The notes beneath the pieces were generated by a model. The model did not search any database, was not told where the DNA came from, and was given only the letters and a program-made list of their open reading frames with translations. A stretch of DNA of 64,000 nucleotides, from positions 124,001 through 188,000 of the forward strand of contig NZ_JAFLQZ010000009.1 of assembly GCF_017313265.1 (NCBI RefSeq), read 5' to 3'. The DNA comes from Hymenobacter telluris (lineage in GTDB: Bacteria; Bacteroidota; Bacteroidia; Cytophagales; Hymenobacteraceae). Shown here in pieces: positions 16,350 to 55,528 of this stretch. The stretch's first letter is position 1, and each line of letters opens with the position of its first letter. The position numbers and the translations under genes were made by a program.

Positions 16350-16418
16350 TGCAGTGAATTGAAGTGCTTTTTGCCGAAAAAGAGGCCCCTGCTGTAGCTG
16401 TTTCCGCTGGTACTTTTG
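16350..16418 (+). promoter_or_regulatory. Candidate HTCS operator A plus -7 element, upstream of GH35-1
   Basis: GCAGTG at 16351, CTTTTTGCCGAAAA at 16367-16380, CCCC at 16386-16389, and the Bacteroidota -7 element TACTTTTG at 16411-16418. The GC of the core is 38 nt before the -7 element. The same arrangement recurs at sites B and C. Direction fits the GH35 gene; control of the divergent HTCS gene cannot be excluded. Confidence 0.6.
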
Positions 16419-16522
16419 CCAAGCATACCGTAGCGCCGACTACTTCCCGCGCCTTAGTGAATGGCGCATTTCCCACCCGGCCTGCTGGCTCCGCCGCGGC
16501 CGCCTTTTTACTGTTCTGATTT

Positions 16523-18406
16523 ATGGAAATGAAAGTTCCCAGCTTTTCAAAGCGTTTATTCTTATTGCTCTTTGGAGCCGGGGTAGCCACTGCCGCCCTC
16601 GCCGAAGGCAGCGGCCCCCAGAAACCAGCTAAGCCCCAGCCGCACACCTTCACGCTCGGTCCCAACCAGTTCCTGCTCGATGGCAAGCCGCTCCAGATGA
16701 TTTCCGGCGAGCTGCACTACCCGCGCATCCCGCGCGAAGCGTGGCGGGCCCGCTTGAAAATGGCCAAAGCCATGGGCCTCAATACGGTAGGTACCTACGT
16801 GTTCTGGAATGTGCACGAGCCTCAGCCCGGCAAGTACGACTTCAGCGGCAACCATGATGTGGCGGCTTTCGTGAAAATGGCCCAGGAAGAAGGTTTGTGG
16901 GTGGTGCTGCGGCCCAGCCCCTACGTGTGCGCCGAGTGGGAATTTGGCGGCTACCCGTACTGGCTCCAGAACGTGCCCGGCCTGAAAGTGCGCAGCCAGG
17001 AGCCGCAGTACGTGGCGGCCTACACCCGCTACCTCGAAGCCGTGGGCAAGCAGCTCGCGCCCTTGCAGGTCAGCCACGGCGGCCCCATTCTGATGGTGCA
17101 GGTGGAAAACGAGTACGGCTCCTATGGCTCCGATAAAGAGTACCTGGCCCTCAACAAGAAGCTGTTTGAATCGGCGGGGTTTGATGGGCTGCTGTATACC
17201 TGCGACCCGGTGAAGGACGTGGCGGCCGGCCACCTGCCCGGCCTGCTGCCCGCCGTAAACGGCACCGACAAGCCCAGCCAGATCCGGCAATTAGTGCACG
17301 CTAACCACAACGGCCAGGGCCCGTACTACGTGGCCGAATGGTACCCCGCCTGGTTCGACTGGTGGGGTACGCGCCACCACACGGTGCCGGCCTCCCAGTA
17401 CACCCCCGGCCTCGATTCGGTGCTGCGGGCGGGCATGTCTATTAATATGTACATGTTCCACGGCGGCAGCACCCGTGACTTCATGAACGGGGCCAATTAC
17501 AAGGGCGACACCTCTAACTACGAGCCCCAGGTCAGCAGCTACGACTACGATGCCCCGCTCGATGAGGCCGGCAATGCCACGCCGAAGTTCATGGCATTCC
17601 GCGGGGTTATCGAGAAATACCTGCCCGCCGGTACCAAACTGCCCGCCGTGCCCGCCGCCAAGCCCAGCACTGTGCTGCCAGTCATGAAGTTTACCAGCAC
17701 TGCTAATTTGCTGGATCGGTTGCCGGCGGCCGTGGCGAATGCCAAGCCGCTCACTTTCGAGGCATTGAAGCAGGCGTACGGCTTTGTATTATACCGTACT
17801 ACCGTTGCGGGTGGCGGCACCAAAACGCTTAAGATTAGTGATGTGCGCGACTACGCCGTAGTGCTGGTGAACGGCAAGCGAGTAGGCACCCTCGACCGGC
17901 GGCTTCGGCAGGACAACCTGAAGCTAACGCTGCCCGCAGGTCAGGTGCAGCTTGATATCCTGGTGGAAAACATGGGCCGCATCAACTTCGGTGAGTACTT
18001 ACTTCAGAACACCAAAGGCATTACGAAAAGCGCGACCCTCGACGGCGCAGAGCTAACCGGTTGGCGCATGTACGGCCTTCCGTTCGATAGCGCCCCAGCT
18101 CTTACCAAACCCAGCGTGCCGGTTATCACGGCCAGCAGCGGACCGGTGCTACGCTCCACCAGCTTCACCGTCGCCACGCCCACCGATACCTACCTCGACA
18201 TGCGGGCCTGGGGCAAAGGCGTGGTGTGGGTGAACGGCCACAACCTCGGCCGCTACTGGGCCATCGGGCCGCAGCAGACCTTGTACGTGCCGGCCGAATG
18301 GCTGAAGAAAGGCGCTAATACCGTAACGGTTCTGGAGCTAATCAAGCCGCAGCAAAACACCCTGGCTACGCTGGCGCACCCCATCCTCAGCGAGTTGCGC
18401 CCCTGA
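16523..18406 (+). CDS. GH35 beta-galactosidase 1
   Basis: A 627-residue exported enzyme that releases terminal beta-linked galactose. After the signal peptide (FLLLFGAGVATAALAEG) comes the GH35 barrel: SGELHYPRIP (~61), GTYVFWNVHEP (~90), SPYVCAEWEFGGYPYWL (~132), acid/base Glu197 in VENEYG, and nucleophile Glu272 in AEWYPAWFDWWG. The C-terminal half carries jelly-roll domains typical of the family (KGVVWVNGHNLGRYW). ATG 16523 or 16529 both fit. It is the first gene of PUL 1 and a close paralog of the GH35 at 50943, with long identical stretches around both catalytic Glu residues. Periplasmic location is expected since there is no lipobox and no T9SS tail. Confidence 0.94.
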   Translation: MEMKVPSFSKRLFLLLFGAGVATAALAEGSGPQKPAKPQPHTFTLGPNQFLLDGKPLQMISGELHYPRIPREAWRARLKMAKAMGLNTVGTYVFWNVHEPQPGKYDFSGNHDVAAFVKMAQEEGLWVVLRPSPYVCAEWEFGGYPYWLQNVPGLKVRSQEPQYVAAYTRYLEAVGKQLAPLQVSHGGPILMVQVENEYGSYGSDKEYLALNKKLFESAGFDGLLYTCDPVKDVAAGHLPGLLPAVNGTDKPSQIRQLVHANHNGQGPYYVAEWYPAWFDWWGTRHHTVPASQYTPGLDSVLRAGMSINMYMFHGGSTRDFMNGANYKGDTSNYEPQVSSYDYDAPLDEAGNATPKFMAFRGVIEKYLPAGTKLPAVPAAKPSTVLPVMKFTSTANLLDRLPAAVANAKPLTFEALKQAYGFVLYRTTVAGGGTKTLKISDVRDYAVVLVNGKRVGTLDRRLRQDNLKLTLPAGQVQLDILVENMGRINFGEYLLQNTKGITKSATLDGAELTGWRMYGLPFDSAPALTKPSVPVITASSGPVLRSTSFTVATPTDTYLDMRAWGKGVVWVNGHNLGRYWAIGPQQTLYVPAEWLKKGANTVTVLELIKPQQNTLATLAHPILSELRP

Positions 18407-18473
18407 GGCGAGTTTCCGGTGCGGCACTCCAAGGTTTGTAAGTAAGATTTTGATAACCAGGTGTAAAGAATTG

Positions 18474-18568
18474 TTGCAGGCGGTGTAATAAAAGCACTAT
18501 TGGCAGATTTTTTTCCCTTTTCTGCCGAAAACTAGTCCCCTTGCACCGCCTGCAAGCCGGTACATTTA
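18474..18568 (+). promoter_or_regulatory. Candidate HTCS operator B inside nested inverted repeats, upstream of SusC-1
   Basis: Core TCTGCCGAAAA at 18521-18531, CCCC at 18537-18540 and -7-like TACATTTA at 18561-18568, 37 nt from the core GC. A perfect 12-bp inverted repeat, TTGCAGGCGGTG (18474-18485) and CACCGCCTGCAA (18544-18555), surrounds it. A smaller GGCAGA/TCTGCC pair (18502-18507, 18521-18526) overlaps the core. Confidence 0.6.
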
Positions 18569-18690
18569 CATCACATTTTCGCGCCCCGTTCTCCAGTCAG
18601 AATGACCTTGTAACAGGCTTCTGTGCTCTTCGCTCTCCAGTCAATTTTTCCCACCTTAGCCGGCATCGGCCGGCTGTAATTCCCTTGCTC

Positions 18691-21600
18691 ATGCAAGCAA
18701 AATCTCTACTTCTGTGCGGAGCCCTGCTGCCGTTGTCGGCCGCGGCCGCACTTGCTTCCCCGCCGTCGGCTTCGGGTGCCAGCTCGAAACTCGCTTTGCG
18801 GTCCGAAGCGGTGGCAACTCCTATTTCCGGTACCATTCTCGATGAGAAAGGGGTGGGCATGCCCGGCGTAACGGTGGTGCTGAAAGGCACGACCATCGGT
18901 ACCGCCACCGACGGCCAAGGCCGCTTCACGCTGACAATTCCCGACGGCACCGAAGCCGCCACGCTCGTTATTTCGTCTATCGGTTACGTGCGGCAGGAAG
19001 TGGTAGTGGGCAGCCAAACCACCTTGTCGGTGCGGCTGGAACTCAACTCCCAGCAGCTCGACGAGGCGGTGGTAGTGGGCTACGGCAGCCAAGAAAAACG
19101 CACCCTCACCAACGCCATTACCACGGTGCAGGGAGAGGAGATTTCCAAGATTACTACCAGTGACCTGGGCGGCGCGCTGCAAGGCAAAGCCGCGGGCGTA
19201 ACGGTACTGGGCGCGGGTTCCGAGCCGGGTTCGGCTCCGCAAATCCTGATTCGTGGTATTTCGACCATCAACGGCAACAACCCGCTGTACGTGGTGGATG
19301 GATTGCCAGTGGCGAATATCAACTACTTGAACCCCAAGGATATTGCCAGCCTGAGCGTGCTCAAAGACGCCGCCTCGGCAGCTATTTACGGGTCGCGGGC
19401 CGCTAACGGCGTGATTCTGATTACCACCAAGGCGGGCGTGAAAGGCGAGCCCCGCCTGACCTTCGATGCCACCTACGGCGTATCGAACCCGACCAAGATT
19501 CCGAACATGGCGTCGGCCAGTGAGTACGCCCGCATCATGAACCTGGCGGCCACCAACTCGGGCCGCCCCGTGGTGTACCAAAACCCTGATTCGTACACCC
19601 AGACCACCGATTGGTGGAAGGAAATTGCCCAGCGCGGCATCACCCAGAACTACTCGGTGGGCCTCTCGGGCGGCAGCGACAAGGTGGTGTATTCCACCGG
19701 CCTGAGCTACTTTAAGGAGCGGGGTCTGGTAACGGGCTCTGATTTCGACCGGATTTCGCTGCGCATCAAAACCGAATATCAGGCGGCGAAGAACCTGAAA
19801 GTGGGTGAGGATTTCAACATCTCGGCCACCAACCAGAAATACCTCAACAGCGGCTCGCTGTTCCGCGACGCCTTTAACGACGACCCCATTACGCCGGCCC
19901 GCTTGCCCGGTACTTCCGGCAACCCCTACGATTACTACGGCGCTTCGCCGACTGACGTGGGCAACCCGCTGGCTACCGTGGAGCGCAACGACGACCGGCG
20001 CAAGCAGTACTTCTTGGTGGGCAACATCTACGCTAACTACGAGTTCGTGCCCGGCCTGATTCTGGAAACGCGCTTCGGCACCAACAACAACGTGTACCGC
20101 CGCAACCAGTTCTCCCCGTTCTACACCATTGATGCCAACGAGCGCAACCAAGTGAATTCGGTGCGCTGGGAGCACAACGTTGAAATCAACTGGAACAACA
20201 CCAACACGCTCAACTACACCCACGCCTTCGGCGACCATAACCTGTCGGCGCTGGCGGCCGTGACGCTGGAACGCTTCCAGACCAACACCCAAGCCACTTC
20301 AGGCCAGGCTATTCCTAGCAACGACAAGAGCTTGCGTTACCCCAATGCCGCCACTTCCGGCTTCGCCATTGAGGGCAACACCTACACCAATACCATTGCC
20401 TCGCTGATTGGCCGCGTCAACTACGACTTCAAGGGCAAGTACCTGCTGGGCGCCAGCATCCGGCGCGACGGGGCCTCGGTGTTCCCAACCAACAATCGCT
20501 GGGGCACGTTCCCATCGGTGTCGGCGGGCTGGCTGGTATCGGAGGAAAGCTTCCTGCAAGACCTAAGCGCCGTTGATTTCTTCAAGATTCGGGGCAGCTG
20601 GGGCCGGGTGGGCAACCAGAATATCACCAGCCTGACCAACAGCGCCTACACCGGCACCATCGGCAAGACGTACTACGCCACCGGCCCCGACCGGACCCTG
20701 CAGCTGGGTGCCGTACAGAGCAACGTGCCCAACCCGAACGTGAAGTGGGAAACCGTAGAAGACTACGACTTGGGCCTGGATTTGGGCTTCCTGCAAAACC
20801 GCCTCACGGCCACCTTCGACGTGTTCCGCCGCAACACCTACGACATGCTGATGTTCCAGGCGCTGCCGGGCCACGCGGCCTACGGCTACAACAGCCCCGT
20901 AACCAACGTGGGTAGCATGAAAACCAACGGCTTGGATTTCACGGTGGGCTACGCCGAAACCAAAGGGGATTTCACCTACGGCCTGAGCGTAAATGCCACC
21001 CGTGCCATCAGCAAAATCGATAAGCTGGCCAACGGACAGGCCCTGTATTCGGGCAACACCCCCATCTTCGGGCGGCCATCTAAAACCGAGGAAGGCGGCT
21101 ACGTAGGTGCATTCTACGGCTACCAAAATACTGGTATCTTCCAGAACCAGGGCGAAATTGATGCTTACAAGTCGGCCAGCGGCGCCCTGATTCAGCCCAA
21201 CGCCAAGCCCGGCGACTTCCGCTTTGCCGATCTTGATGGCGACGGCGTCATCAACGAGAAAGACCAGAAGTACATCGGCAACCCCATGCCCGACCTCTCT
21301 TTCGGCGTGAACCTGAATTTGGGTTACAAAGGCTTCGATTTGCTGGCTTCCTTGGTAGGCAGCCTCGGCAACGACGTGGTGAATGCCAACAAAGGCTGGT
21401 GGTACTCGGGTAGCTACAACTACAACAAAATCTCGGGCCTCGAAGGCAAAGCCTGGAGCGGCGAAGGCACTTCCAACGATGTGCCGCGCATTGTGGCCAA
21501 CGACAACAACCAGAACCTGACCCGCTTCTCGAATTTCTACGTGGAAAATGGCTCGTACGCTCGGTTGCGCAACCTCCAGCTCGGCTACACCTTCTCGAAG

Positions 21601-21810
21601 AACATTGCCACGGCCATGCACATGGGCAGCCTGCGCCTCTACGTGAGTGCCCAGAACCTGGCTACCATCACCAAGTACAGCGGCGTGGACCCCGAAATCG
21701 GCAACGGCCGCTCGTACACCGACGGTTCGTCGGCGCTGAACCGGGGCGTTGACCTCGGCAACTACCCCACGGCCCGCACCTTCCTGATTGGTGCCAACGT
21801 CGCCTTCTAA
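18691..21810 (+). CDS. SusC/RagA-type TonB-dependent outer-membrane transporter 1
   Basis: A 1039-residue TonB-dependent receptor for oligosaccharide uptake. It has a signal peptide (MQAKSLLLCGALLPLSAAAA), a CarboxypepD_reg-like domain (ISGTILDEKGVGMPGVTVVL, ~47-125), the SusC plug signature EAVVVGYG (~124), a plug with IRGISTINGNNPLYVVDG and ASAAIYGSRAANGVILITTK, then a 22-strand barrel ending in the aromatic IGANVAF. It works with the SusD lipoprotein encoded 107 nt downstream. ATG 18691 starts the signal peptide; the longer upstream reading frame overlaps operator B and is not credible. The signal peptide resembles that of SusC-4. Confidence 0.95.
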   Translation: MQAKSLLLCGALLPLSAAAALASPPSASGASSKLALRSEAVATPISGTILDEKGVGMPGVTVVLKGTTIGTATDGQGRFTLTIPDGTEAATLVISSIGYVRQEVVVGSQTTLSVRLELNSQQLDEAVVVGYGSQEKRTLTNAITTVQGEEISKITTSDLGGALQGKAAGVTVLGAGSEPGSAPQILIRGISTINGNNPLYVVDGLPVANINYLNPKDIASLSVLKDAASAAIYGSRAANGVILITTKAGVKGEPRLTFDATYGVSNPTKIPNMASASEYARIMNLAATNSGRPVVYQNPDSYTQTTDWWKEIAQRGITQNYSVGLSGGSDKVVYSTGLSYFKERGLVTGSDFDRISLRIKTEYQAAKNLKVGEDFNISATNQKYLNSGSLFRDAFNDDPITPARLPGTSGNPYDYYGASPTDVGNPLATVERNDDRRKQYFLVGNIYANYEFVPGLILETRFGTNNNVYRRNQFSPFYTIDANERNQVNSVRWEHNVEINWNNTNTLNYTHAFGDHNLSALAAVTLERFQTNTQATSGQAIPSNDKSLRYPNAATSGFAIEGNTYTNTIASLIGRVNYDFKGKYLLGASIRRDGASVFPTNNRWGTFPSVSAGWLVSEESFLQDLSAVDFFKIRGSWGRVGNQNITSLTNSAYTGTIGKTYYATGPDRTLQLGAVQSNVPNPNVKWETVEDYDLGLDLGFLQNRLTATFDVFRRNTYDMLMFQALPGHAAYGYNSPVTNVGSMKTNGLDFTVGYAETKGDFTYGLSVNATRAISKIDKLANGQALYSGNTPIFGRPSKTEEGGYVGAFYGYQNTGIFQNQGEIDAYKSASGALIQPNAKPGDFRFADLDGDGVINEKDQKYIGNPMPDLSFGVNLNLGYKGFDLLASLVGSLGNDVVNANKGWWYSGSYNYNKISGLEGKAWSGEGTSNDVPRIVANDNNQNLTRFSNFYVENGSYARLRNLQLGYTFSKNIATAMHMGSLRLYVSAQNLATITKYSGVDPEIGNGRSYTDGSSALNRGVDLGNYPTARTFLIGANVAF

Positions 21811-21817
21811 TTGATTA

Positions 21818-21893
21818 GTAGTTGGTTGCTAGTTGCCGGTCGTTGGTCTTTGACTTCACCGCCCACAGCTAGCCGCCGACAACTGACCACCAA
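21818..21893. repeat. GTTGCCAGTT-family repeat, copy 1
   Basis: Degenerate GTTGCTAGTTGCCGGTCGTT repeats on the left face their complement GACAACTGACCACC on the right, forming a loose inverted structure between susC-1 and susD-1. Related copies lie at 23531 and 59366. Confidence 0.55.
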
Positions 21894-21917
21894 ATTCATC
21901 CCACCGCTTCTACTGTC

Positions 21918-23462
21918 ATGAAACATATCCGCATCACACTGGCCCTGGTTATGGGCCTGGGAGTAAGTCTGCAAAGCTGCGACGACTTCCTCAATGAGCC
22001 CCCACAGGGCCAGCAAAACGTAAACAACTACTACTCCAACGCCGAGGAGTGCAAGGCCGCCGTAATGGGCTGCTACGCCACCGCCGACCAGGACGACTGG
22101 TGGAAGATTGACCGTACCCGCATGTTCGGCGACGCCGGCTCGGACGACGCCTGGAAGGGCAACGCCATTGCCGGGGACCAGCGCGAGTTCGGCGACTTTG
22201 CCCGCTTCTTCTGGTTGCCCAACAACGAGTGGTTCGATAACCGTTATGTGCATATCTATCAGTCGATTGGCAACTGCAACGCCGCGCTGGTGGGCATCGA
22301 CAAAGCCCCGATTGATGGCACGCTGAAAGCCCAGTTGCTGGGGGAAGTGAAGTTCATCCGGGCGTACAACTACTTCGAGCTGGTGAAAGGCTACGGTGGG
22401 GTGCCGCTGGTGCTCACGCCGCTGGCCCCCAGCGAGGCCCTGGCCCTGAAGCGCGCTACGGCCGCCGAAGTGTACGCCCAGATTGTAAAGGACTTGCAGG
22501 AAGCCGCTGCCGCCCTGCCCGAGAAAAGCGCCCGCGCCACCGTTGACCTGGGACGAGCCACCAAGGGTTCGGCCAATGCCTACCTGGCTAAAGCTTACCT
22601 GTTCACTGAGCAGTGGCAGCTGGCCCAGCAGGCCGCCGAAGTGGTTATGGCTTCCAACCAGTACAACCTGAACGGCGAGTTCAGCAACATCTGGAACGTA
22701 AGCAACCCGAACGGCTCGGAGTCGATTTTCGAGCTGAACTACAGCCCCGACCAAGCTTTCAACCTGGGCTCGTCCCTGACGGTGGTAATGCGCAGCCGCG
22801 CTGATGGGGGCTGGGGCTTCAACACGCCCACCAGCAACCTGGAGCAGGCTTTCATCCAGGAAAACGACCCGCGCCGCCGCTGGACCATCATCAAGCAGGG
22901 CGACAACGTAGGCGCCCGCACGGCCAGCTTCGATTACTCCAACTACGACACCAAGCCCGCCGAAAACGAGTCGGGCCGCATCAGCCGCAAGATGTTCCTG
23001 CCGCTGGCCGACCGCCCTGCCAACGAGCGGGAGCACGCGCCGCTCAACCGCATCGAAATGCGCTACGCCGACCTGCTACTCATGCACTCCGAGGCCTCGT
23101 TCCGCTTGGGGCAGGAAGCTAAAGCGTTGTCGTCGTTGAACTTGGTGCGGGCCCGCGCCAACCGCTTGCAGCCTGGCACGGTGCTGCCGCGCACGTCTAC
23201 CGGCACGGCTCTGCTGAACCACATCTGGCTGGAGCGCCGCTTGGAGCTGGCTATGGAAGGCCACCGCTACTACGACCTGGTGCGCCAGAAGCGCCTGGTA
23301 GCCGTAATGACGGCCTTCAACGCCTCGCAGCTCACCAGCACCGACCCCTATGACCGGGGCAAGGTGAAGGACCAGATTTCCGACAAGAACAACCTGTTCC
23401 CGATTCCAACCAGCCAGATTCAGCTTTCGGGCGGCAACGTTACGCAGAACCCTGGTTACTAA
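21918..23462 (+). CDS. SusD/RagB-type surface glycan-binding lipoprotein 1
   Basis: A 514-residue lipoprotein that caps the SusC-1 transporter and binds glycan at the surface. The lipobox is LQSC with Cys21, followed by DDFLNEPP; acidic residues just after the Cys fit the Bacteroidota surface-export signal. SusD features include the TPR-like helices (VKFIRAYNYFELVKGYGGVPLV), the C-terminal RMRYADLLLMHSEA-like segment (IEMRYADLLLMHSEASF), LERRLELAMEGHRYYDLVR, and the family's terminal QNPGY. It follows susC-1 by 107 nt. A strong terminator follows, so the GH5 gene downstream may depend partly on read-through or its own promoter. Confidence 0.95.
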   Translation: MKHIRITLALVMGLGVSLQSCDDFLNEPPQGQQNVNNYYSNAEECKAAVMGCYATADQDDWWKIDRTRMFGDAGSDDAWKGNAIAGDQREFGDFARFFWLPNNEWFDNRYVHIYQSIGNCNAALVGIDKAPIDGTLKAQLLGEVKFIRAYNYFELVKGYGGVPLVLTPLAPSEALALKRATAAEVYAQIVKDLQEAAAALPEKSARATVDLGRATKGSANAYLAKAYLFTEQWQLAQQAAEVVMASNQYNLNGEFSNIWNVSNPNGSESIFELNYSPDQAFNLGSSLTVVMRSRADGGWGFNTPTSNLEQAFIQENDPRRRWTIIKQGDNVGARTASFDYSNYDTKPAENESGRISRKMFLPLADRPANEREHAPLNRIEMRYADLLLMHSEASFRLGQEAKALSSLNLVRARANRLQPGTVLPRTSTGTALLNHIWLERRLELAMEGHRYYDLVRQKRLVAVMTAFNASQLTSTDPYDRGKVKDQISDKNNLFPIPTSQIQLSGGNVTQNPGY

Positions 23463-23476
23463 GTGAATGCCTTATG

Positions 23477-23530
23477 ATGCCCCATGTGCTGCCCGTTGTT
23501 GCGGGTAGGGCATGGGGCATTTGGTTTTTT
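23477..23530 (+). terminator. Intrinsic terminator after SusD-1
   Basis: A 19-bp stem with three mismatches (from ATGCCCCATG at 23477 to its complement ending 23520), a TTGTTG loop, then TTGGTTTTTT. It probably sets SusC/SusD transcript levels above the downstream GH5 gene. Confidence 0.8.
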
Positions 23531-23697
23531 CAGTTGCCGGTTGTGAGTTGCCGGTTGTGAGTTGCCAGTTGCGAGTTGTCAGTTGCCAGTGAAACGTCTA
23601 ACCGATAACCGGCAACCGATAACCGGCAACTGGCAACTCACAACCGATAACTCACAACCGATAACCGGCAACTGGCAACTCACAACCGGCAACTGTA
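23531..23697. repeat. GTTGCCAGTT-family repeat array, copy 2 (largest)
   Basis: Several tandem units of GTTGCCGGTTGTGA type run for about 55 nt, then the complementary form (ACCGATAACCGGCAACTGGC) runs for about 100 nt. The whole is a long imperfect inverted repeat. It abuts the GH5 start and creates a spurious in-frame N-terminal extension there. Confidence 0.75.
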
Positions 23698-23726
23698 CTA
23701 CTTCCTTTGCCCACCCATCCTTACTC

Positions 23727-25232: not shown

Positions 25233-25382
25233 GTGGCTCGCTACTGTTTTGTAGCACCCCAAAGAGGCGTTATTTCTCGATAAGCTCGGAATGACGCCTT
25301 CTTAAAATTCTGTGATACAATTTGGTCCGGCTATCCACCTTCACCGGCAGGGTAGCCGGGCCGCTTCTTTTAACGTTTGCCT

Positions 25383-26939: not shown

Positions 26940-26957
26940 AAAGATGCTGCCTAAACC

Positions 26958-34750: not shown

Positions 34751-34923
34751 GGGTGGGGGAGTTGCGTGGGAATAAAGCTAAGCGAAAAGGCAACGGGGGT
34801 GGTAGTAAAGCTGTGAAAAGTTGCCGGGGGCCTACGCACGCCCCGGCGGCCCCGAAGGTAGCGTACTGTTGAGTATACCCCAAATTCTATATAAAAGCCG
34901 CAAATCGGAAACGCCAGACAAGT

Positions 34924-34983
34924 TACCCCCCTCTTTTTGGTGGATATGCCCCCGGCGCTGGGGGTACCTAAGCGCTACTTTTA
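34924..34983 (+). promoter_or_regulatory. Candidate HTCS operator D plus -7 element, upstream of SusC-2
   Basis: TACCCC (34924), CTTTT (34933), GTG (34940) and GCCCCC (34948-34953), with -7-like TACTTTTA at 34976-34983. The first four blocks have the same spacing as in site E at 55470. Start codon of susC-2 is about 165 nt beyond the -7 element. Confidence 0.6.
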
Positions 34984-35149
34984 CCCCTACTTAACTGCTC
35001 AAAAAACAAGCAGCCAACGGGTTTTCAAGGCCTTTATAAGATAGGCTCTATGAACGACGCCCCGGCTTGCTTGGTGGTGGTTGAAGCTGCCTAGTGTCCC
35101 TAATTTCCCACCCATGCCCGGCGCAGGCCGGCATGATAACGCACCATCT

Positions 35150-38182: not shown

Positions 38183-38203
38183 GCCCGCCCTTCTTTCTGA
38201 ATC

Positions 38204-39886: not shown

Positions 39887-39936
39887 GAGAGGCCAGCCTC
39901 TCCACCTATTTCCCACCGCTTTTTATTGGAATTTAT

Positions 39937-43062: not shown

Positions 43063-43082
43063 TGACTTCTGGCTTCCCATCC

Positions 43083-44822: not shown

Positions 44823-44862
44823 CGCTGGCTGCACGCTGGGCTAACGCCTGCCGTCATCACCC

Positions 44863-44904: not shown

Positions 44905-45030
44905 CGTAAAAAGCTTGGCTGAGCAAGGGAAAACGAGTTGGTTAGTGAGGGCTTACGGTACTAGGATAGCTCGCCAGCGGTAGGAGAGAGGGCACAAGAA
45001 GCCACCTGCGGGCGGAAAGAACCGGCTGCT

Positions 45031-45105
45031 GGCAGTGTAGTGAAAATGCCCCCCTGTTTTGCCGAAAATGGAACCCTCAACGCGTCTGGCAACCGCCTAG
45101 TTTTG
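45031..45105 (+). promoter_or_regulatory. Candidate HTCS operator C plus -7 element, upstream of SusC-4
   Basis: GGCAGTG at 45031, TTTTGCCGAAAA at 45057-45068, CCC at 45074-45076, and a perfect -7 element TAGTTTTG at 45098-45105, 37 nt from the core GC. The flanking GCAGTG...TGAA...TGC also matches site A. Confidence 0.65.
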
Positions 45106-45224
45106 AGATTAAAGCAGGATAGAGTTGCAATTGCTTGGGGTTGCTACTACTGCATTTGTACCTCTATCCAGATGAGCCCATCAACCACACTCTTCCCACA
45201 CTAACTGGCTCCGGCCATTTTTGT

Positions 45225-48224: not shown

Positions 48225-48252
48225 TTACTTCCCACGCCCACACGCATTCCAC

Positions 48253-49845
48253 ATGAAACGTTTTTCTCTTTATATGCTGGGCCTGCTTGGTGCCGCCCAG
48301 CTGCTTAGTTCCTGCGCCAAAGACTACCTCGACGAAGACCCCAAGTCGCTCTACACGCCGTCTACCACGCTGGTTGACTCGCTGGGGTTTGAGGCGGCTA
48401 TGGTGGGGTTGCAATCCGTAGTGCGCGAGCAGTACACGGCCAGCGACCGGCAGGGCCTGCTCAGCACCATGCAGGTAGGCACCGATGCCGCCATTCCGGT
48501 GCTCTCGGCCATTGAGGGCATCGAGGTACCGTACTACAACTACACCCTCATGAACTCGCAGGATGGCGGGGCCGCCTATTACTGGAGCTGGGCCTACCGC
48601 ACCATCAACAATGCCAACCAGATTATTGCGGGCACTACTACCACGGCCAGCCCCGCGCTGCGCCAAGGCTACAAAGACCGTATCAGTGCCGAGGCCCGCT
48701 TTTTCCGGGCCTACGCTTACAACCTGCTGGCTACGCTCTACGGCGGGGTGCCGCTGGTGGAAACGCCCGTTACCAGTCCGCGCATCGACTTCACGCGGGC
48801 TTCGCTGGAGCAGGTAAATGCGCTGATCATTAGTGATCTGACTACTGCCGTAGCCAACCTGCCCCAGGTAAGTTCCCGGGCCGTTAGCCAGCAGTCGCGC
48901 ATCAACCGGGGGGCGGCGCAACAGCTGCTTGGGGAGGTGTACCTACGCACCAACCAGCCCGCGCTGGCCCAAACCCAGCTCCAGAACGTAATCAGCGGCA
49001 ACCAGTACCGCTTGATTACGGCCCGCTACGGCGTGAAATCCTCGCAGCCCGGCGACTATTACTCCGACATGTTTGTGGTGGGCAACCAGCGCCGCAGCCA
49101 GGGCAACACCGAGCTGATCTGGGGCATTGAACAGCAGCTCCTGGTGCCCGGCGGCGAAACCTCGGCGCAGCAGCGCCGGGTGTGGGTGCCGGGCTACTAC
49201 AACATCAACGGCATGCTGGTGGCCGACTCGCTCGGGGGCCGGGGCGTCGGCCGTTTGCGGCTTAGCGACTGGGTGATTTACCGCCTGTACCGCAACCTGC
49301 CCAACGACATGCGGAACTCCAGGTACAACATCCGGCGCCGTTTCTACTACAACAATCCGGCCTCGGCCAACTACGGCCGCCGCGTGGTAGTCACCGGCTC
49401 CGATACCCTGCGGATTGCGCCCCACACCACCAAGTGGAACCAGTTCAACCCCAACGACGTGTTCGGTTTCGGTACCATCAAGGACCTGACCATGATGCGC
49501 CTCGGCGAAACTTACCTGCTGCTGGCTGAAGCCCAGTTCAAGCAAGGCAATACGGCCGGCGCCGCTACCAGCATCAACGTGCTGCGCACCCGCGCCCAGG
49601 CGCCGCTGGTTACCGCCGCCGACATCACCCTTGATTTCATTCTGGATGAGCGCGCCCGGGAGCTGATTGGGGAAGAGCAGCGCCGCCTCACGCTGTTGCG
49701 CACCGGCACCCTCATCGACCGGGTGACGCGCCTCAACCCCACCTTCGTGACCGGCCTGACCACCAAAAACCTGCTGCTGCCCATTCCGCAGGCAGAAATT
49801 GACCTGAACACGCAGGGCCGTCTGGAGCAAAACCCCGGCTACTAA
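48253..49845 (+). CDS. SusD/RagB-type lipoprotein 4
   Basis: A 530-residue lipoprotein partner of SusC-4, 28 nt downstream of it. Lipobox LSSC (Cys21) is followed by AKDYLDEDP, an acidic surface-export stretch. SusD features are AEARFFRAYAYNLLATLYGGVPLVETPV, INRGAAQQLLGEVYLRTNQ, MMRLGETYLLLAEAQFKQGN, FILDERARELIGEEQRRLTLLR and the terminal LEQNPGY. It is more distant from SusD-2 and SusD-3 than those are from each other. It should bind the galactan-type glycan handled by the downstream GH43 and GH35 enzymes. Confidence 0.94.
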   Translation: MKRFSLYMLGLLGAAQLLSSCAKDYLDEDPKSLYTPSTTLVDSLGFEAAMVGLQSVVREQYTASDRQGLLSTMQVGTDAAIPVLSAIEGIEVPYYNYTLMNSQDGGAAYYWSWAYRTINNANQIIAGTTTTASPALRQGYKDRISAEARFFRAYAYNLLATLYGGVPLVETPVTSPRIDFTRASLEQVNALIISDLTTAVANLPQVSSRAVSQQSRINRGAAQQLLGEVYLRTNQPALAQTQLQNVISGNQYRLITARYGVKSSQPGDYYSDMFVVGNQRRSQGNTELIWGIEQQLLVPGGETSAQQRRVWVPGYYNINGMLVADSLGGRGVGRLRLSDWVIYRLYRNLPNDMRNSRYNIRRRFYYNNPASANYGRRVVVTGSDTLRIAPHTTKWNQFNPNDVFGFGTIKDLTMMRLGETYLLLAEAQFKQGNTAGAATSINVLRTRAQAPLVTAADITLDFILDERARELIGEEQRRLTLLRTGTLIDRVTRLNPTFVTGLTTKNLLLPIPQAEIDLNTQGRLEQNPGY

Positions 49846-49907
49846 GCATGTATTTGGCGGCCTGCTACCTAACTGGTAGCAGGCGGCTATTTATCCTTCG
49901 AGTTTCT

Positions 49908-50936
49908 ATGAAATACGTATTTCCGGCCCTGCTTGGGCTATGCCTGGGGGTGGTGAGTGCCCCAGTTGCCATGGCGCAAGGCCCGTCGTCGGTTGCTGCA
50001 ACAACGGCGGCGGGCTTCCGGCCCGGCCAGCTCTGGTACGACACCGAAGGCAACGTCATCAACGCGCACGGCGGCGGGGTGCTGCTGGTGGGCAAGACGT
50101 ATTATTGGTACGGTGAAAAGCGCGCCCAGCACGAAGAGGAAGGCGTAACCGTGTACTCGTCGAAGGACCTCTACAACTGGAAGTACGAAGGCGTGGCCCT
50201 CACGCCCTCCCCCGACCCGCAACACGATATTGCGGCCGGCTGCCTGATGGAACGCCCCAAGGTCGTCTACAACAAGAAGACCGGCAAGTACGTGATGTGG
50301 TTTCACCTGGAGCTGAAGGGCAAAGGCTACAGTGCCGCCCGGGCCGGCGTGGCCGTGTCCGACAAGCCCACCGGCCCCTTCCAATACGTGAGTAGCTTCC
50401 GGCCCAACGGCAACATGTCGCGCGACATGGGCCTGTACGTGGACGACGACGGCGCGGCCTACCACATCTACTCGTCGCGGGAAAACTACGATTTGCGCCT
50501 GGCCCGCCTTTCGCCCGACTACCTGACGGCTACCACCCAGGACTCGTTGCTGTTTGCCAACCACCGCGAGGCCCCAGCGCTGTTTAAAACCGGCGGCAAA
50601 TACTACCTCATCACCAGCGGCTGCACCGGCTGGGCGCCCAACCAAGCCACCCTGCACGTGGCCGATAAACCGTTCGGACCCTGGACCTTACTCGGTGACC
50701 CCATGACCGGCCCGAACGCCAAGCTCACTTACGGCGGGCAGTCAACCTACGTGCTGCCGGTGCCGGGCAAGAAGGATGCCTTTATCTTCATGGCCGACAA
50801 GTGGAACCCCAAAGACCTGAAGGATAGCCGCTATTTGTGGCTGCCGGTGCAGTTCAAAGCCGGCCAGCCCACTATTGATTGGTTGGACCAGTGGGACCTG
50901 AGTTTTTTCAATAAGGCATCCAATAAACAGCTATAG
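49908..50936 (+). CDS. GH43 glycosidase, probable exo-beta-1,3-galactanase type (subfamily 24-like)
   Basis: A 342-residue single-domain five-blade propeller enzyme with a signal peptide (ends VAMAQG). It lacks the usual N-terminal GH43 base Asp: the position reads NVINAHGGGVLLVGKTYYWYGE. Glu115 (MERPKVVYN), Glu221 (HREAPALF) and Gln278 (GGQSTYV) have almost the same spacing as the Glu, Glu and Gln catalytic residues I recall for fungal GH43_24 exo-beta-1,3-galactanase, which uses Gln in place of the base. That enzyme removes galactose, with or without side chains, from the beta-1,3 backbone of arabinogalactan. ATG 49908 starts the signal peptide. It is 62 nt after susD-4 and 6 nt before GH35-2. 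Confidence 0.85.
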   Translation: MKYVFPALLGLCLGVVSAPVAMAQGPSSVAATTAAGFRPGQLWYDTEGNVINAHGGGVLLVGKTYYWYGEKRAQHEEEGVTVYSSKDLYNWKYEGVALTPSPDPQHDIAAGCLMERPKVVYNKKTGKYVMWFHLELKGKGYSAARAGVAVSDKPTGPFQYVSSFRPNGNMSRDMGLYVDDDGAAYHIYSSRENYDLRLARLSPDYLTATTQDSLLFANHREAPALFKTGGKYYLITSGCTGWAPNQATLHVADKPFGPWTLLGDPMTGPNAKLTYGGQSTYVLPVPGKKDAFIFMADKWNPKDLKDSRYLWLPVQFKAGQPTIDWLDQWDLSFFNKASNKQL

Positions 50937-50942
50937 CTCGTT

Positions 50943-52820
50943 ATGTATAAGCACGTTGTAGGCGCTCTGCTACTCGCTGGGCTGGGGCTGACCCCGGCTA
51001 CGCAAGCCCAAACCAAGGCCGCGGCCGCCAAGCACACCTTCGCCCTCGGCGACGAGAATTTCCTGCTCGATGGCAAGCCGTTTCAGATGATTTCCGGCGA
51101 GCTGCACTACCCGCGCATTCCGCGCGAGGCGTGGCGGCACCGCATGAAAATGGCCAAGGCCATGGGCCTGAACACCATCGGCACCTACGTGTTCTGGAAC
51201 GTGCACGAGCCCGAGCAGGGCAAGTACGACTTCTCAGGCAACAACGACATTGCCGCCTTCGTGAAAATTGCCCAGGAGGAAGGCTTATGGGTGGTGCTGC
51301 GGCCCAGCCCGTATGTGTGCGCCGAGTGGGAATTTGGCGGCTACCCGTACTGGTTGCAGAAGGATAAGAACCTGGTAGTCCGCAGCAAAGACCCCAAGTA
51401 TTTGGCCGCGTATGGCCGCTATTTGAAGGCCGTGGCCCAGCAGCTGGCGCCGCTGCAAGTCAACCACGGCGGGCCGGTGCTGATGGTGCAGGTGGAAAAC
51501 GAGTACGGCTTCTATGCCAGCGACAAAGACTATTTGGCCCTCAACCGCCAGATGTTTGTGGATGCCGGCTTCGATGGGTTGCTCTACACCTGTGACCCCG
51601 GCGAGAAAGTGAAGGAAGGCCACCTGCCGGGCTTGCTGCCGGCCGTAAATGGCTGGGACGACCCGCGCAAAGTGAAGCAGCTGGTGCGCACCTACCACGA
51701 AGGCAAAGGCCCCTACTACATTGCCGAATGGTACCCCGCCTGGTTCGACTGGTGGGGCACGCCGCACCACACGGTACCCGCTTCCAAGTACACGCCCCGC
51801 CTCGATTCGGTGCTGCGGGCCGGTATTTCCATCAACATGTATATGTTTCATGGTGGCACCACCCGGGGCTTCATGAACGGCGCCAACTACAAAGGCCCCG
51901 GCACCCGCTACGAACCCCAAACCAGCAGCTACGACTACGATGCCCCGCTGGATGAGGCCGGCAACGCCACGCCGAAGTTTATGGCGTTCCGCGGGGCCAT
52001 TGAGAAATACCTGCCCGCCGGTACCAAGCTACCCGCCGTGCCTGCGGCCAAGCCCACTATGCGCACGCCGGTAATTACCCTGAGCAGCGCCACCAATTTA
52101 TTGAGCGTGTTGCCGAAGCCGGTGGTGAGTGCTGCGCCCCAAACGTTTGAAGACCTGAACCAGGACTACGGTTTCGTGCTCTACCGCACCACGCTAGCGG
52201 GTGGCCGCACCGGCACGCTCCAGCTCAAAGACCTGCGCGACTACGCCGTGGTGCTGGTAAACGGCCAGCGCGTAGCCACCCTGGACCGCCGCCTGGAGCA
52301 GGACCAAACGGAAATCACGCTGCCCAAGGGCACTGTCACGCTCGATATTCTGGTGGAAAACCTGGGCCGCCTGAACTTCGGGCCGTTCCTGAACCAAAAC
52401 CGCAAGGGCATCACCGAGCAGGTGAGCTTCGCGGGCACTGAGGTGAAGAACTGGCAGCACTTCCGCCTGCCCTTCAACGACATCAGCAAAGTAGGCAAGG
52501 CGCCCGCCGGCAAAGCCGCCGCCGCCAACGGCCCGGTGCTGCGGCGTGGCTCCTTCACCGTAGCCACCCCTGCTGATACGTACTTCGATATGAGCCAGTG
52601 GGGTAAGGGGTGCGTGTGGCTGAACGGCCACCACCTGGGCCGCTACTGGGAAGTGGGGCCTCAGCAAACCCTGTACGTGCCCGCCGAATGGCTGAAAAAA
52701 GGCGCCAACGAAGTGGTGGTGCTGGAAATGTTGAAGCCCCAGCAAGACAAGCTGGTAGGCCTGGAAAAACCCATTCTTGATGTAGTGAAAGCTGATGGCG
52801 AAGCCCGCCGCACCAACTAG
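50943..52820 (+). CDS. GH35 beta-galactosidase 2
   Basis: A 625-residue exported enzyme (signal peptide ending ATQAQ) that removes terminal beta-galactose. It aligns almost without gaps to the GH35 at 16523: SGELHYPRIP, CAEWEFGGYPYWL, acid/base Glu187 in VENEYG, nucleophile Glu262 in AEWYPAWFDWWG, SSYDYDAPLDEAGNATPKFM and the C-terminal jelly roll with LNGHHLGRYW. Differences cluster in the linker after the barrel and around VPGLKV/DKNLVV, so the two may differ in linkage preference. It starts 6 nt after GH43, implying one transcript and joint action on galactan side chains and backbone. No sorting tail; periplasmic location expected. Confidence 0.94.
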   Translation: MYKHVVGALLLAGLGLTPATQAQTKAAAAKHTFALGDENFLLDGKPFQMISGELHYPRIPREAWRHRMKMAKAMGLNTIGTYVFWNVHEPEQGKYDFSGNNDIAAFVKIAQEEGLWVVLRPSPYVCAEWEFGGYPYWLQKDKNLVVRSKDPKYLAAYGRYLKAVAQQLAPLQVNHGGPVLMVQVENEYGFYASDKDYLALNRQMFVDAGFDGLLYTCDPGEKVKEGHLPGLLPAVNGWDDPRKVKQLVRTYHEGKGPYYIAEWYPAWFDWWGTPHHTVPASKYTPRLDSVLRAGISINMYMFHGGTTRGFMNGANYKGPGTRYEPQTSSYDYDAPLDEAGNATPKFMAFRGAIEKYLPAGTKLPAVPAAKPTMRTPVITLSSATNLLSVLPKPVVSAAPQTFEDLNQDYGFVLYRTTLAGGRTGTLQLKDLRDYAVVLVNGQRVATLDRRLEQDQTEITLPKGTVTLDILVENLGRLNFGPFLNQNRKGITEQVSFAGTEVKNWQHFRLPFNDISKVGKAPAGKAAAANGPVLRRGSFTVATPADTYFDMSQWGKGCVWLNGHHLGRYWEVGPQQTLYVPAEWLKKGANEVVVLEMLKPQQDKLVGLEKPILDVVKADGEARRTN

Positions 52821-52851
52821 AAGTTAACTCAGACGCAGTCAGAACGGGGTA

Positions 52852-52935
52852 GAGACGCATACGTGCGTCTCGTCGTTGAACGGAATCAGTTGAACGGCGC
52901 GCCCAACGAGACGCGAGTGTGCGTTTCTCCCCCCC
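52852..52935. repeat. GAGACGC hairpin repeat element
   Basis: A perfect 8-bp hairpin (GAGACGCA, loop TACG, TGCGTCTC; 52852-52871), two copies of GTTGAACGG (52875, 52889), and a second GAGACGC...GCGTTTC hairpin (52908-52927). It resembles short dispersed REP-like elements and sits between GH35-2 and the DUF2264 gene. Confidence 0.55.
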
Positions 52936-53085
52936 TGATGCACAGCTTCAGATTCCGCAAATAGCTTCTCAGACAACACGCCACCTTCCCGATTTACCTG
53001 TTTTCCACCCGTGCCAATTCCCATCTTGCTTTGTTCTGTTTCACCCAGACCTGCCCGCTCAGGTGCTCGGCACGGGCGCTTCGGC

Positions 53086-55122
53086 ATGCGTAATCTTGGT
53101 GGTGCTTTTCTGCTGAGTGTACTGCTGGCTGGTAGCGCGCAGGCGCAATCCACCGCTCCTGCTTTCTTCGACACCAACGTGGCACCGGCCACTACCAAGC
53201 TGCCTCCGTTCGTAGTCACCCAGCCCGACAAAACGCTGAGCCCATTCACCGGCATGACGCGCAAACACTGGCAGGAGGCGGCCCGGTATCTGCTGGCGGG
53301 TGCGTTCAGCTACGTCCGGACCCTCGACGACCCCATGCAGTTCCCGAAGGAGCCCGGCAAAAGCTACCCCCGCAACCCCGGCCAGGTGCCCACCGAAAAG
53401 CTGGAAGGCTTGTGTCGCACGCTGTTTATGGCCGCACCGCTGCTCAAGGAAAACCCCGCGCTGGCGCTGAACAACGTGAAAGTGGCCGACTATTACCGGC
53501 ATCAACTCACTGAACTGGTGAACCCAGCCAGCCCAACCTACATCAAGCCCCGCGCGGCCAATGGCGGCCCCAGCCAGAACCTGGTGGAGTTTGGCGGGCT
53601 GGCCGTGGCCCTGTTTGCGGCCCCCGAAATCCTGTGGAATCCGCTGCCAAAGGCCACCAAAGATGCATTGGTAGCCACCATGCTCAGCTACGGCGACGGC
53701 CCCACAGTGCCCCAGAACTGGCGCTACTTCAACATCTTCATCCTCAGTTTCTTTGAAAGCCAGGGCTACCCGGTCAATGAGAAGCTGTTGGAAGAGTACC
53801 TGCAAAAACAGCTCACGCACTACCGCGGCGCGGGCTGGTATGATGATGCGCCCTCGTTCGACTACTACAGCATGTGGGCGTTTCAGATGTACGGCCGGTT
53901 GTGGAGCGAGTACTACGGCCGGCAGCACTACCCGCAGATAGCCCAGCAGCTCACTGCCAATTTCGCGCCGCTTGCCGACGGGTATCCCCGTATGTTTGGG
54001 CGTGATGGCCAGATGATTATGTGGGGCCGCAGCATCACCTACCGCTTTGCGGCGGTGGTACCCTTCCCGCTGATGGGGTTGCAGCCCGACGCAGCTACCA
54101 ACTTCGGCTGGATGCGGCGCATTGCCTCGGGGGCCATGCTGCAATTCCTGGAAAACCCTGATTTCCTGGAAGACAACGTGCCCACGCTGGGGTTCTACGG
54201 CTCCTTCGAGCCGGCCGTGCAGCCGTATAGCTGCCGGGGCAGCGTGTACTGGATGGGCAAGGCGTTTCTGGGGCTGCTGACCCCGGCCGACAGCCCCTTC
54301 TGGACTGCCCCCGAAAACGAAGGCCCCTGGGCGAAGGAGCTGGCGCCGGGTACGGTGTTCAACAAGTTGGAAACCGGCCCTAACCTGCTGGTAACCAACT
54401 ACCCCAACACGGGCGCGGCCGAACTGCGCACTGCCCCCCACCAGCCCTTCAGCGACCCATACCGCCACGACGAAAATTACAACCGCCTCAGCTACAACAG
54501 CGCCTTCCCGTGGCAAGCCGACGGCCCCAACGGCGAGGTGGCCATGAACTACGTGTTCAAAAACAAGGAAAACCAGTGGGAGCCGCTGCGCCTCTACACC
54601 TTCGAAGGGTTCGAGGATGGCGTGTACTACCGCAACGCGGTGCTGGAAAGTAACAAGAACATCAGCCTGCACCTGGCCGATATGCCCTTGCCCAACGGCA
54701 TCCTGCGCCTCGACCAAAACACCAGCACCGAAGCCGCCGCCGTGCGCCTGGGCCACTACGCGCTGCCCAACCTGACCGGCACCATCAAGCGCAGCACCCG
54801 CAAAGTGAAAGGCCACGAAGTCCGCATCATCGACAACGGTACCTACCAGCTGGCCTTGGTTTCGCTCAGCGGCTGGCAAAACCTGGAAACCCTGGATACC
54901 AACGGCCTACATCCCGTGAAGCCTGGCAGCACTGTACTTAACGTGTCGGGCAACCTGGCCCCCAACCAACCCACGCTGTATGCTACGCTTATGCTCTGGA
55001 AGAAGTCGGGGGCCAGCTGGAGCACCAAGGAGCTGCTACCGGTGAAAAAGCTGACCCCTGCTGCCGCCGGCGTGCTGGTGGAAATGGCCAACGGCGACAA
55101 AAAGACTGTGAAATTCAAGTAG
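53086..55122 (+). CDS. DUF2264 family protein, probable glycoside hydrolase
   Basis: A 678-residue exported protein (signal peptide ending GSAQAQ). The N-terminal ~400 residues have DUF2264 features, an alpha/alpha-barrel-like set of helices with KHWQEAARYLLAGAFSYV, GPSQNLVEFGGLAVALFAAPE, NWRYFNIFILSFFESQGYPVN, YDDAPSFDYYSMWAFQMYGRLW and FGRDGQMIMWGRSITYRFA; the C-terminal part is a beta-sandwich. I recall that some DUF2264 proteins from Bacteroides arabinogalactan loci were found to be beta-glucuronidases (placed in GH154), but that assignment is from memory. The position after GH43 and GH35 fits. ATG 53086 starts the signal peptide. The 265-nt gap upstream holds a repeat but no clear promoter. 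A terminator follows. Confidence 0.8.
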   Translation: MRNLGGAFLLSVLLAGSAQAQSTAPAFFDTNVAPATTKLPPFVVTQPDKTLSPFTGMTRKHWQEAARYLLAGAFSYVRTLDDPMQFPKEPGKSYPRNPGQVPTEKLEGLCRTLFMAAPLLKENPALALNNVKVADYYRHQLTELVNPASPTYIKPRAANGGPSQNLVEFGGLAVALFAAPEILWNPLPKATKDALVATMLSYGDGPTVPQNWRYFNIFILSFFESQGYPVNEKLLEEYLQKQLTHYRGAGWYDDAPSFDYYSMWAFQMYGRLWSEYYGRQHYPQIAQQLTANFAPLADGYPRMFGRDGQMIMWGRSITYRFAAVVPFPLMGLQPDAATNFGWMRRIASGAMLQFLENPDFLEDNVPTLGFYGSFEPAVQPYSCRGSVYWMGKAFLGLLTPADSPFWTAPENEGPWAKELAPGTVFNKLETGPNLLVTNYPNTGAAELRTAPHQPFSDPYRHDENYNRLSYNSAFPWQADGPNGEVAMNYVFKNKENQWEPLRLYTFEGFEDGVYYRNAVLESNKNISLHLADMPLPNGILRLDQNTSTEAAAVRLGHYALPNLTGTIKRSTRKVKGHEVRIIDNGTYQLALVSLSGWQNLETLDTNGLHPVKPGSTVLNVSGNLAPNQPTLYATLMLWKKSGASWSTKELLPVKKLTPAAAGVLVEMANGDKKTVKFK

Positions 55123-55142
55123 CTACCTGCTACCCATATACT

Positions 55143-55323
55143 AAACTACGCAACGTGCGGTGCCGGCCGCAGTATTTAAATCTGGATTGTTCGCCTGTTG
55201 AAATGGGAGGCGAAACGGTGCCAGATTAGGTGAAAAAGGAAGTGCTGCGCTTCTTCGGGAGTGACGGTCGGAGAGGAGTGGGAACCTTGCCGGCCAGTAG
55301 TTGGCACCGCACGTTCGTAGTTT
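55143..55323. repeat. Possible MITE-like element with 21-22 nt terminal inverted repeats
   Basis: AAACTACGcAACGTGCGGTGCC (55143-55164) is repeated inverted at 55303-55323, differing by one extra base. The 138-nt interior has no gene. No clear target duplication is visible. It could also be a folded 3' untranslated region. Confidence 0.45.
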
Positions 55324-55340
55324 TAAGTAGTTGCCAAACC

Positions 55341-55395
55341 AGCCCGTGGCGCCATCAGGAAGACATTTTTCCTGGCGGCGCCACGGGCTTTTGTG
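55341..55395 (+). terminator. Strong intrinsic terminator closing the SusC-4 operon
   Basis: A perfect 13-bp stem (AGCCCGTGGCGCC at 55341-55353 with its complement at 55377-55389), an inner CAGGAA/TTCCTG pairing, and a TTTTGTG tail. Confidence 0.85.
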
Positions 55396-55469
55396 TTTTA
55401 CGCCACATGTGAGGCGCCCCGCTAGAACGACAATAGAGGCCATTTTCAGCTAAGCTTAGTAGCCGAATA

Positions 55470-55528
55470 TACCCCTGGCTTTTGCGTGAAATAGCCCCCG
55501 CCGGCGCGGAGGGAGGTGGGTACTATTA
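55470..55528 (+). promoter_or_regulatory. Candidate HTCS operator E plus -7-like element, upstream of the GH128-like gene
   Basis: TACCCC (55470), CTTTT (55479), GTG (55486) and GCCCCC (55494-55499), each spaced as in site D. A weak -7-like TACTATTA starts at 55521, 37 nt from the core GC at 55484. Confidence 0.5.

Follow-up and report, generated by a model that had tools for sequence, protein, structure and literature searches.

The closest described relatives of the system discussed here are the hybrid two-component systems (HTCSs) of Bacteroides and the polysaccharide utilization loci (PULs) under their control. For 16 HTCSs of Bacteroides, Ravcheev et al. (2013; PMC3878776) predicted motifs, each of them a direct repeat in the account given there and with an average spacing of 21 bp, and close HTCS paralogues, for example BT4111 and BT4124, were proposed there to share a motif. 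In PUL5 of Bacteroides thetaiotaomicron, an HTCS is described as activating a susC promoter (PMC6874557, PMC3878776), HTCS fragments are reported to bind susC promoters in vitro (PMC11253607), and in Bacteroides xylanisolvens the mutation of an HTCS is reported to lower the genes of two xylan PULs (PMC4855328). Here, we describe a stretch of 64,000 nucleotides from the 6.0-Mb genome of Hymenobacter telluris (contig NZ_JAFLQZ010000009.1, positions 124,001 to 188,000; the window, counted from its first letter), which carries two PULs (PUL1 and PUL2), each adjoined by one HTCS (HTCS1 and HTCS2). Five upstream regions in this window (sites A to E) are very probably operators for these two sister regulators, joined at a near-fixed distance to the -7 promoter of the Bacteroidota.

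Like the HTCS operators predicted in B. thetaiotaomicron, the Hymenobacter sites are direct repeats (22 bp versus a mean of 21 bp) upstream of susC and other PUL genes beside an HTCS, and paralogous HTCS pairs sharing a motif are listed there as well (HTCS_Rgu-1, HTCS_Rgu-2; PMC3878776). In contrast, Hymenobacter belongs to another order and genus, its sites have their own consensus and a 22-bp period, and the two groups are likened by geometry and not by consensus letters. The joint Hymenobacter regulon would furthermore span two PULs, each with its own HTCS. In the xylan PULs of B. xylanisolvens, one HTCS likewise controls two clusters, directly or indirectly, as shown by a mutant, whereas the operator is defined here from sequence and the relevant passages of that report describe no binding site (PMC4855328). 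Similarly, two arabinogalactan-related PULs of B. thetaiotaomicron, PUL5 (HTCS BT0267) and PUL65, have their own HTCSs and are reported with signs of interplay (PMC6874557, PMC3878776). Direct-repeat HTCS operators and cross-PUL control are known, and it is well supported that what is new is the Hymenobacter case, which has a consensus of its own and a regulon extending across PUL1 and PUL2. A literature search joining Hymenobacter, hybrid two-component, and polysaccharide utilization locus terms found nothing, and one joining Hymenobacter, PUL, and arabinogalactan found a passing mention only.

The sites resemble HTCS operators in having direct half-sites with a spacing of about 21 bp, in lying 5' of susC or CAZyme genes that adjoin an HTCS gene, and in being conserved before orthologous genes. 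Their positions are as follows, with half-site limits placed by hand from the consensus:

16351 to 16418, forward strand: site A, promoter-operator 5' of the GH35 gene and divergent from HTCS1; downstream half-site 16373-16387, -7 element TACTTTTG at 16411-16418, upstream half-site 16351-16365 degenerate and without a C-run
18502 to 18568, forward strand: site B, promoter-operator 5' of PUL1 susC; half-sites 18502-18516 and 18524-18538, -7 element TACATTTA at 18561-18568
34917 to 34983, forward strand: site D, promoter-operator 5' of PUL2 susC 2a and divergent from HTCS2; half-sites 34917-34931 and 34939-34953, -7 element TACTTTTA at 34976-34983; the best match of the genome
45039 to 45105, forward strand: site C, promoter-operator 5' of PUL2 susC 2c; half-sites 45039-45053 and 45061-45075, -7 element TAGTTTTG at 45098-45105
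55462 to 55528, forward strand: site E, promoter-operator 5' of the Glyco_hydro_cc gene; half-sites 55462-55476 and 55484-55498, -7 element TACTATTA at 55521-55528

The initial annotation had described each region as a T-rich core followed by a C-run 10-13 nt on and a -7 element 37-38 nt on, and all five were found where it placed them, with the cores and -7 elements it gave. Measured from the G of the core, the C-run starts at +13 in A, B, and C, at +10 in D, and at +11 in E, and the TA of the -7 element lies at +38 in A and at +37 in each of the other four sites, in agreement with both ranges. The further claim that the C-run lies exactly 13 nt on is true for A, B, and C, yet with D and E it describes a sub-variant and not a rule. 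It was also correctly noted that a clear TTTG at -33 is lacking, as none of the five sites has TTTG in that window. The operator picture as a whole was half complete: an upstream half-site had been overlooked and the repeating unit is not the TTTTGCCGAAAA core. In B, C, D, and E, the upstream half-site has its own C-run starting 9-13 nt before the core G, and in site C the heptamer GAAAATG is repeated exactly 22 bp apart.

The consensus was drawn from 90 matches in 61 sources, of which 13 were dropped at an identity of at least 85% before consensus, repeat, and spacing were counted, leaving 77 non-redundant sites. The operator is a direct repeat of GnCnAATTTnnCCCC and GCYGAAAAWnnCCCC, 22 bp apart and at a near-fixed distance from TAnnTTT[AG], in which the unit AA(T/A)(T/A)(T/A)nnCCCC recurs every 22 bp. 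In full, the consensus reads GnCnAATTTnnCCCC - nYTTTTT - GCYGAAAAWnnCCCC - about 23 weakly conserved nucleotides - TACTTTT(A/G)CC. When the similarity of columns was compared at offsets of 8 to 30, only 22 bp gave a positive sum, which corresponds to a single, direct repeat, and its best stretch was reached in none of 2000 column permutations. Reading TTTTGCYGAAAA as an inverted repeat was rejected, since this scored below zero in every register tried (best value -3.7).

In the promoter part of the element, a TA occupies the -7 place in 74 of the 77 sites (the other three matches end before that place), and the distance from the A-run to this TA is 32 nt in 65 of the 74 and 31 or 33 nt in the remaining nine. 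Sigma-A type promoters of the Bacteroidota are described with TAnnTTTG at -7 (PMC7366714, PMC9723704), a box mapped to -12 to -5 in Flavobacterium psychrophilum (PMC9723704). The Hymenobacter sites share the TAnnTTTG-type -7 box with these promoters, but its last base is A or G about equally and TTTG at -33 is missing in 72 of 74 sites (present in two; TTG in 13), as would be expected for an activated promoter. With the -7 box placed at -12 to -5 of the predicted start sites, the near half-site would lie at about -49 to -35 and the far half-site at about -71 to -57.

These distances suggest how the system may work. The periplasmic sensor domains would bind a galactan fragment, upon which the kinase would phosphorylate the receiver. 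The putative operator comprises two half-sites of 15 bp that point in the same direction and are 22 bp, or two helical turns, apart, so that two AraC-type domains could bind next to each other on the same side of the helix. The near half-site would abut the place of the missing -33 element, and it is there that the bound dimer would recruit RNA polymerase, a class II-like activation to judge by the position of that half-site. The dimer would activate a single regulon made up of the GH35 gene, susCD and the enzymes of PUL1, the susCD pairs and the enzymes of PUL2, and a secreted hydrolase. This regulon would probably serve the use of type II arabinogalactan, and PUL1 and PUL2 would probably be switched on together.

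The specificity of the element was examined with an HTCS2 homologue search over 120 Hymenobacter genomes, with four candidates scored per genome. From this, 40 loci (about 780 kb) were taken. For each of 39 homologues in other genomes, the locus was at most 20 kb of flanking DNA in the direction of the PUL, and the remaining one was the flank of one distant HTCS of the source genome. A relaxed gapped pattern gave 25 matches in these loci (24 distinct places, one lying in two overlapping loci) versus none in the reversed loci. By automatic assignment, 22 of the 25 lie just 5' of homologues of the window's susC or GH35 genes, and three have no assigned gene. A comparable pattern without the -7 part was far less specific (41 matches versus 19 reversed). 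A profile was then trained, on sequence only, with 22 sites from 16 other Hymenobacter genomes. The three pattern matches from Hymenobacter norwichensis (one site counted twice) were excluded from it. Because the training sites had been picked by a pattern modelled on the original observation, the source genome and its nearest relative were left out and a pattern-free search was added.

Over the whole 6.0-Mb genome, this held-out profile ranked sites D, B, A, E, and C first to fifth, with E-values of 2e-8, 1.9e-5, 1.9e-4, 7.9e-4, and 0.011, and the sixth match followed at 0.16 (model E-values rest on a shortened calibration). The pattern-free expectation-maximisation search covered the 340 nt preceding homologues of susC and GH35, on the strand of the gene only, and recovered the same motif in 40 of 44 non-redundant upstream regions of other species, with a log-likelihood of 940. 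Two letter-shuffled sets, for which 60 seeds were used instead of the 150 of the real set, reached 145 and 163. It is extremely improbable that the five sites are a chance resemblance picked by eye. The one result that would fit such a coincidence is that of the strict pattern TTTTGS-N5..13-CCC-N16..28-TANNTTTR, which yields just six matches in the genome (A, C, and D among them; B and E missed) versus three for the reverse. The held-out ranking, the co-occurrence with the HTCS, the pattern-free rediscovery, and the matches in two other families (see below) speak against it. For the genome scan with a gapped motif that the initial annotation had envisaged, the strict single pattern was rejected as too weak for a deciding test, whereas the held-out profile puts all five sites first, before PUL genes. 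The TTTTGCCGAAAA core alone was likewise rejected as a signal, as it occurs four times versus six times for its reverse.

The same scan bears on whether Hymenobacter uses this sequence as a general promoter element, of susC genes or of a sigma factor, a reading that could invoke the -7 part, which is an ordinary box of the TAnnTTTG sigma-A type as described for the phylum (PMC9723704, PMC7366714). SusC genes that exceed the family cut-off number 39 in this genome, but matches below E = 0.1 number only five, all of which lie within PUL1 and PUL2 and three of which lie 5' of a susC gene. As only 3 of the 39 SusC genes carry the motif, a general susC element was rejected. The stretch between operator and -7 box is, moreover, little conserved, and we regard a general promoter element as very improbable. 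A third full-length HTCS of the genome (30-33% identity) differs in its helix residues. No pattern match was found in the 20 kb adjoining it and no model match on its contig.

An operator for the two HTCSs is further suggested by the distribution of the sites across genomes. In H. norwichensis, whose HTCS2 is 90% identical to that of the window, sites A (20.0 bits), B (36.7), D (29.7), and C (17.0) are conserved. Among the 120 genomes, a match at E <= 1e-4 was found in 39 of the 44 with an HTCS of this clade versus 3 of the 76 without, and at E <= 1e-3 in 40 of 44 versus 5 of 76. Without the 16 training genomes, the count at E <= 1e-4 is 23 of 28 (source genome included) versus 3 of 76. Homologues down to 741 bits were counted as present and weaker fragments as absent. 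The underlying list of matches was made with stricter filters and extends to about E = 0.0075, so that both thresholds fall within it. In total, 86 matches were found at 1e-4. For 69 of them, an HTCS of this clade is no more than 50 kb away, and the other 17 lie on contigs without one (some of these belong to draft assemblies, whose breaks may hide the true distance). In this set of 17, obtained without any choice of sources, 14 sites stand 5' of genes homologous to those of PUL1 or PUL2 (identity 63-79% for 12 of them and 37% for two), one overlaps a predicted GH31 start, and two (in genomes G102 and G011) do neither. Of 85 sites outside the window, 74 are followed by a gene homologous to a PUL gene of the window; for the other 11, automatic assignment gave no gene (nine sites) or another gene (two sites). 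The 61 sources were chosen by the analyst, namely the window, PUL-side stretches, and the surroundings of earlier matches, with one H. norwichensis site appearing twice among the 85. Four loci were not included, namely L035 and three in which the matches lie elsewhere than 5' of PUL homologues (L133, L137, and L138), and the proportion of 74 in 85 is thus tilted in favour of a PUL operator.

The element reaches beyond the genus. Among 23 genomes listed outside Hymenobacter, 14 with HTCS homologues of 48-58% identity were scanned, and each of the 10 matches at E <= 0.001, which come from two further families of the order, is no more than 6 kb away from an HTCS homologue. A separate scan of 15 HTCS loci of the wider order gave four matches below 1e-4, in agreement with the genome scan.

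Several observations weigh against the sites being operators of HTCS1 and HTCS2. The upstream half-site of A is poor and lacks its C-run, and site C is the weakest of the five matches (E = 0.011). Site E was not found in the H. norwichensis stretch examined (8 kb after PUL2), where the similarity to the window stops in a hairpin-like repeat before E, ahead of the promoter. Some support for E comes from a homologue of its gene in genome G104 (57% identity), which has a matching but modest site (L141, 19.4 bits). Five of the 44 HTCS-bearing genomes have no match at 1e-4 (G025, which sets the 741-bit limit, G030, G065, G101, and G118), three genomes without the HTCS do have one (G078, with a broken HTCS remnant beside the site, and G011 and G102, neither of which has a remnant), and 6 of the 14 genomes of the wider order have no match at 0.001 (eight do). 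Important to note here is that the co-occurrence counts are not independent, as a site and an HTCS gene are in most cases inherited together within one gene cluster and the genomes are related by descent.

An alternative is an operator for a different transcription factor whose presence simply coincides with that of these PULs: counts of co-occurrence do not separate the HTCS from a gene that always accompanies it, and no systematic search for other regulators was made. Tandem 15-bp half-sites two turns apart nevertheless suit an AraC-type dimer and equal the pattern predicted for Bacteroides HTCSs (PMC3878776), the sites adjoin the HTCS gene in three families, and 14 of the 17 sites on HTCS-less contigs belong to genomes with the HTCS. 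We consider such a factor improbable.

A few of the loci encountered deserve mention in their own right. In G078 (L127, 2215-5796), two HTCS fragments, about 50% identical and counted as absent above, lie beside a strong site and a short susC frame (445 aa); this locus is a decaying PUL in which the operator has been retained. G102 has a strong site without this HTCS clade (E 6.7e-7; L133 near 4557, reverse strand), and the next long frame on this strand, of the penicillin-amidase family, is about 850 nt away. The site at a predicted GH31 start (G018; L137 near 4119) points to a possible further regulon member that is absent from the window. The plasmid p_unnamed1 of Hymenobacter qilianensis (L214 / L175) carries an HTCS gene of this clade that contains an in-frame stop, together with two model matches on the same contig, and a PUL of this type may thus move on plasmids.

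If the sites are read by HTCSs, it has to be asked whether there is one regulon or two. The proposed regulators are encoded as follows:

11892 to 16241, reverse strand: HTCS1, with Reg_prop repeats, Y_Y_Y, HisKA, HATPase_c, receiver, and AraC-type HTH_18 domains
30482 to 34750, reverse strand: HTCS2, with domains as in HTCS1

Both have the composition that defines the family, with sensor, HisKA, HATPase_c, receiver, and AraC-type helix-turn-helix (HTH) in one chain, and they are 67% identical. Their putative recognition helices, in regions that we presume to be equivalent to those in the AraC structure, differ by few residues (SQSVMYRRIKSI / SQSVFYRRIKSI and VKYFRKTFQKIY / AKYFRKAFQKIY). The receiver loop of both reads AHIP and not S/CHIP. 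In the S/CHIP motif, Ser or Cys is reported to come first in 84% of HTCSs and HIP to be present in more than 90%, and the loop is said to hold the DNA-binding domain shut (PMC11253607). In HTCS1 and HTCS2, the restraint on the DNA-binding domain might be weaker.

In the two-regulon case, HTCS1 would serve A and B only and HTCS2 would serve C, D, and E only, with look-alike operators inherited from an ancestral HTCS-operator pair. Two sister paralogues that each lie beside their own PUL would fit this, as would the sub-variants of the C-run (+13 in A, B, and C versus +10 and +11 in D and E), but site C has the +13 variant and yet belongs to PUL2, which is a poor fit, and the recognition helices are nearly alike. 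Many homologues are clearly nearer to HTCS1 or to HTCS2, and others are about equally far from both. In a fuller HTCS search of nine genomes (65 candidates scored each), G053, G044, and G063 have only an HTCS2-type protein, the other matches being at most 41% identical among the matches listed, and nonetheless have a site before a PUL1-type susC (75-76% identical). Conversely, G081 and G045 have only the HTCS1 type and sites before genes nearest to susC 2c, where the labels are best BLAST matches to the window. At least in genomes where only one type is present, it can therefore probably also act on targets that belong to the other PUL, and two separate regulons appear possible but doubtful.

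The HTCS regulon joining PUL1 and PUL2 that the initial annotation had proposed is supported by the genome ranking, the pattern-free rediscovery, the direct-repeat geometry, the HTCS co-occurrence, the likeness of the helices, and the one-HTCS genomes, from which we infer binding and activation. It is likely that both HTCSs share the sites in the source genome, where both are present. Whether the two sense different pieces of one polysaccharide and both act on the same five operators is an evenly balanced question in our judgment; this would amount to a single OR-gated regulon with a wiring that is old in the genus and survives the loss of either regulator because the other reads all sites. 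The operator and regulon described here are precise and testable for HTCSs in Hymenobacter, and sites on other contigs offer a way to list the HTCS regulon from sequence. The genomes with one HTCS are a natural test of regulator exchange between PULs, and reporters for use in laboratory strains could be designed from the 22-bp repeat and the spacing of 32 nt to the -7 box.

The proposed targets in the window are the following:

16523 to 18406, forward strand: GH35 beta-galactosidase of PUL1, proposed target of site A
18541 to 23462, forward strand: PUL1 susC and susD, proposed targets of site B
23562 to 26939, forward strand: GH5-like enzyme with a ricin-type lectin domain, then a GH30 enzyme (PUL1)
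35081 to 44822, forward strand: two susC/susD pairs of PUL2, proposed targets of site D
45135 to 55122, forward strand: susC 2c, susD 2c, GH43 (exo-beta-1,3-galactanase-like), GH35, and DUF2264 genes of PUL2, proposed targets of site C as a putative operon
55516 to 59364, forward strand: Glyco_hydro_cc protein with a Por secretion tail (PUL2), proposed target of site E

The flanks of the PULs carry genes without a matching operator, namely alpha-amylase-family and GH97 genes and a GH10 gene with a Por secretion tail (60301-63882 and 7037-8920, both reverse strand). The true start of PUL1 susC is probably later than that of the open reading frame, at the ATG at 18691, and from their spacing the GH5-like and GH30 genes probably share an operon with PUL1 susCD. 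PUL2 has in total three susC/susD pairs, a GH43, a second GH35, a DUF2264 protein, and the large Glyco_hydro_cc protein. The chains nearest to the GH43 protein are 6eug and 6euf, which are named as beta-glucanases, followed by a galactan 1,3-beta-galactosidase and an exo-beta-1,3-galactanase. For the GH30 protein, the nearest chain is an unnamed exported protein (3clw), with several xylanases and one endo-beta-1,6-galactanase lower down. The presence of two GH35 enzymes together with these GH43 and GH30 similarities suggests type II arabinogalactan as the putative substrate of both PULs.

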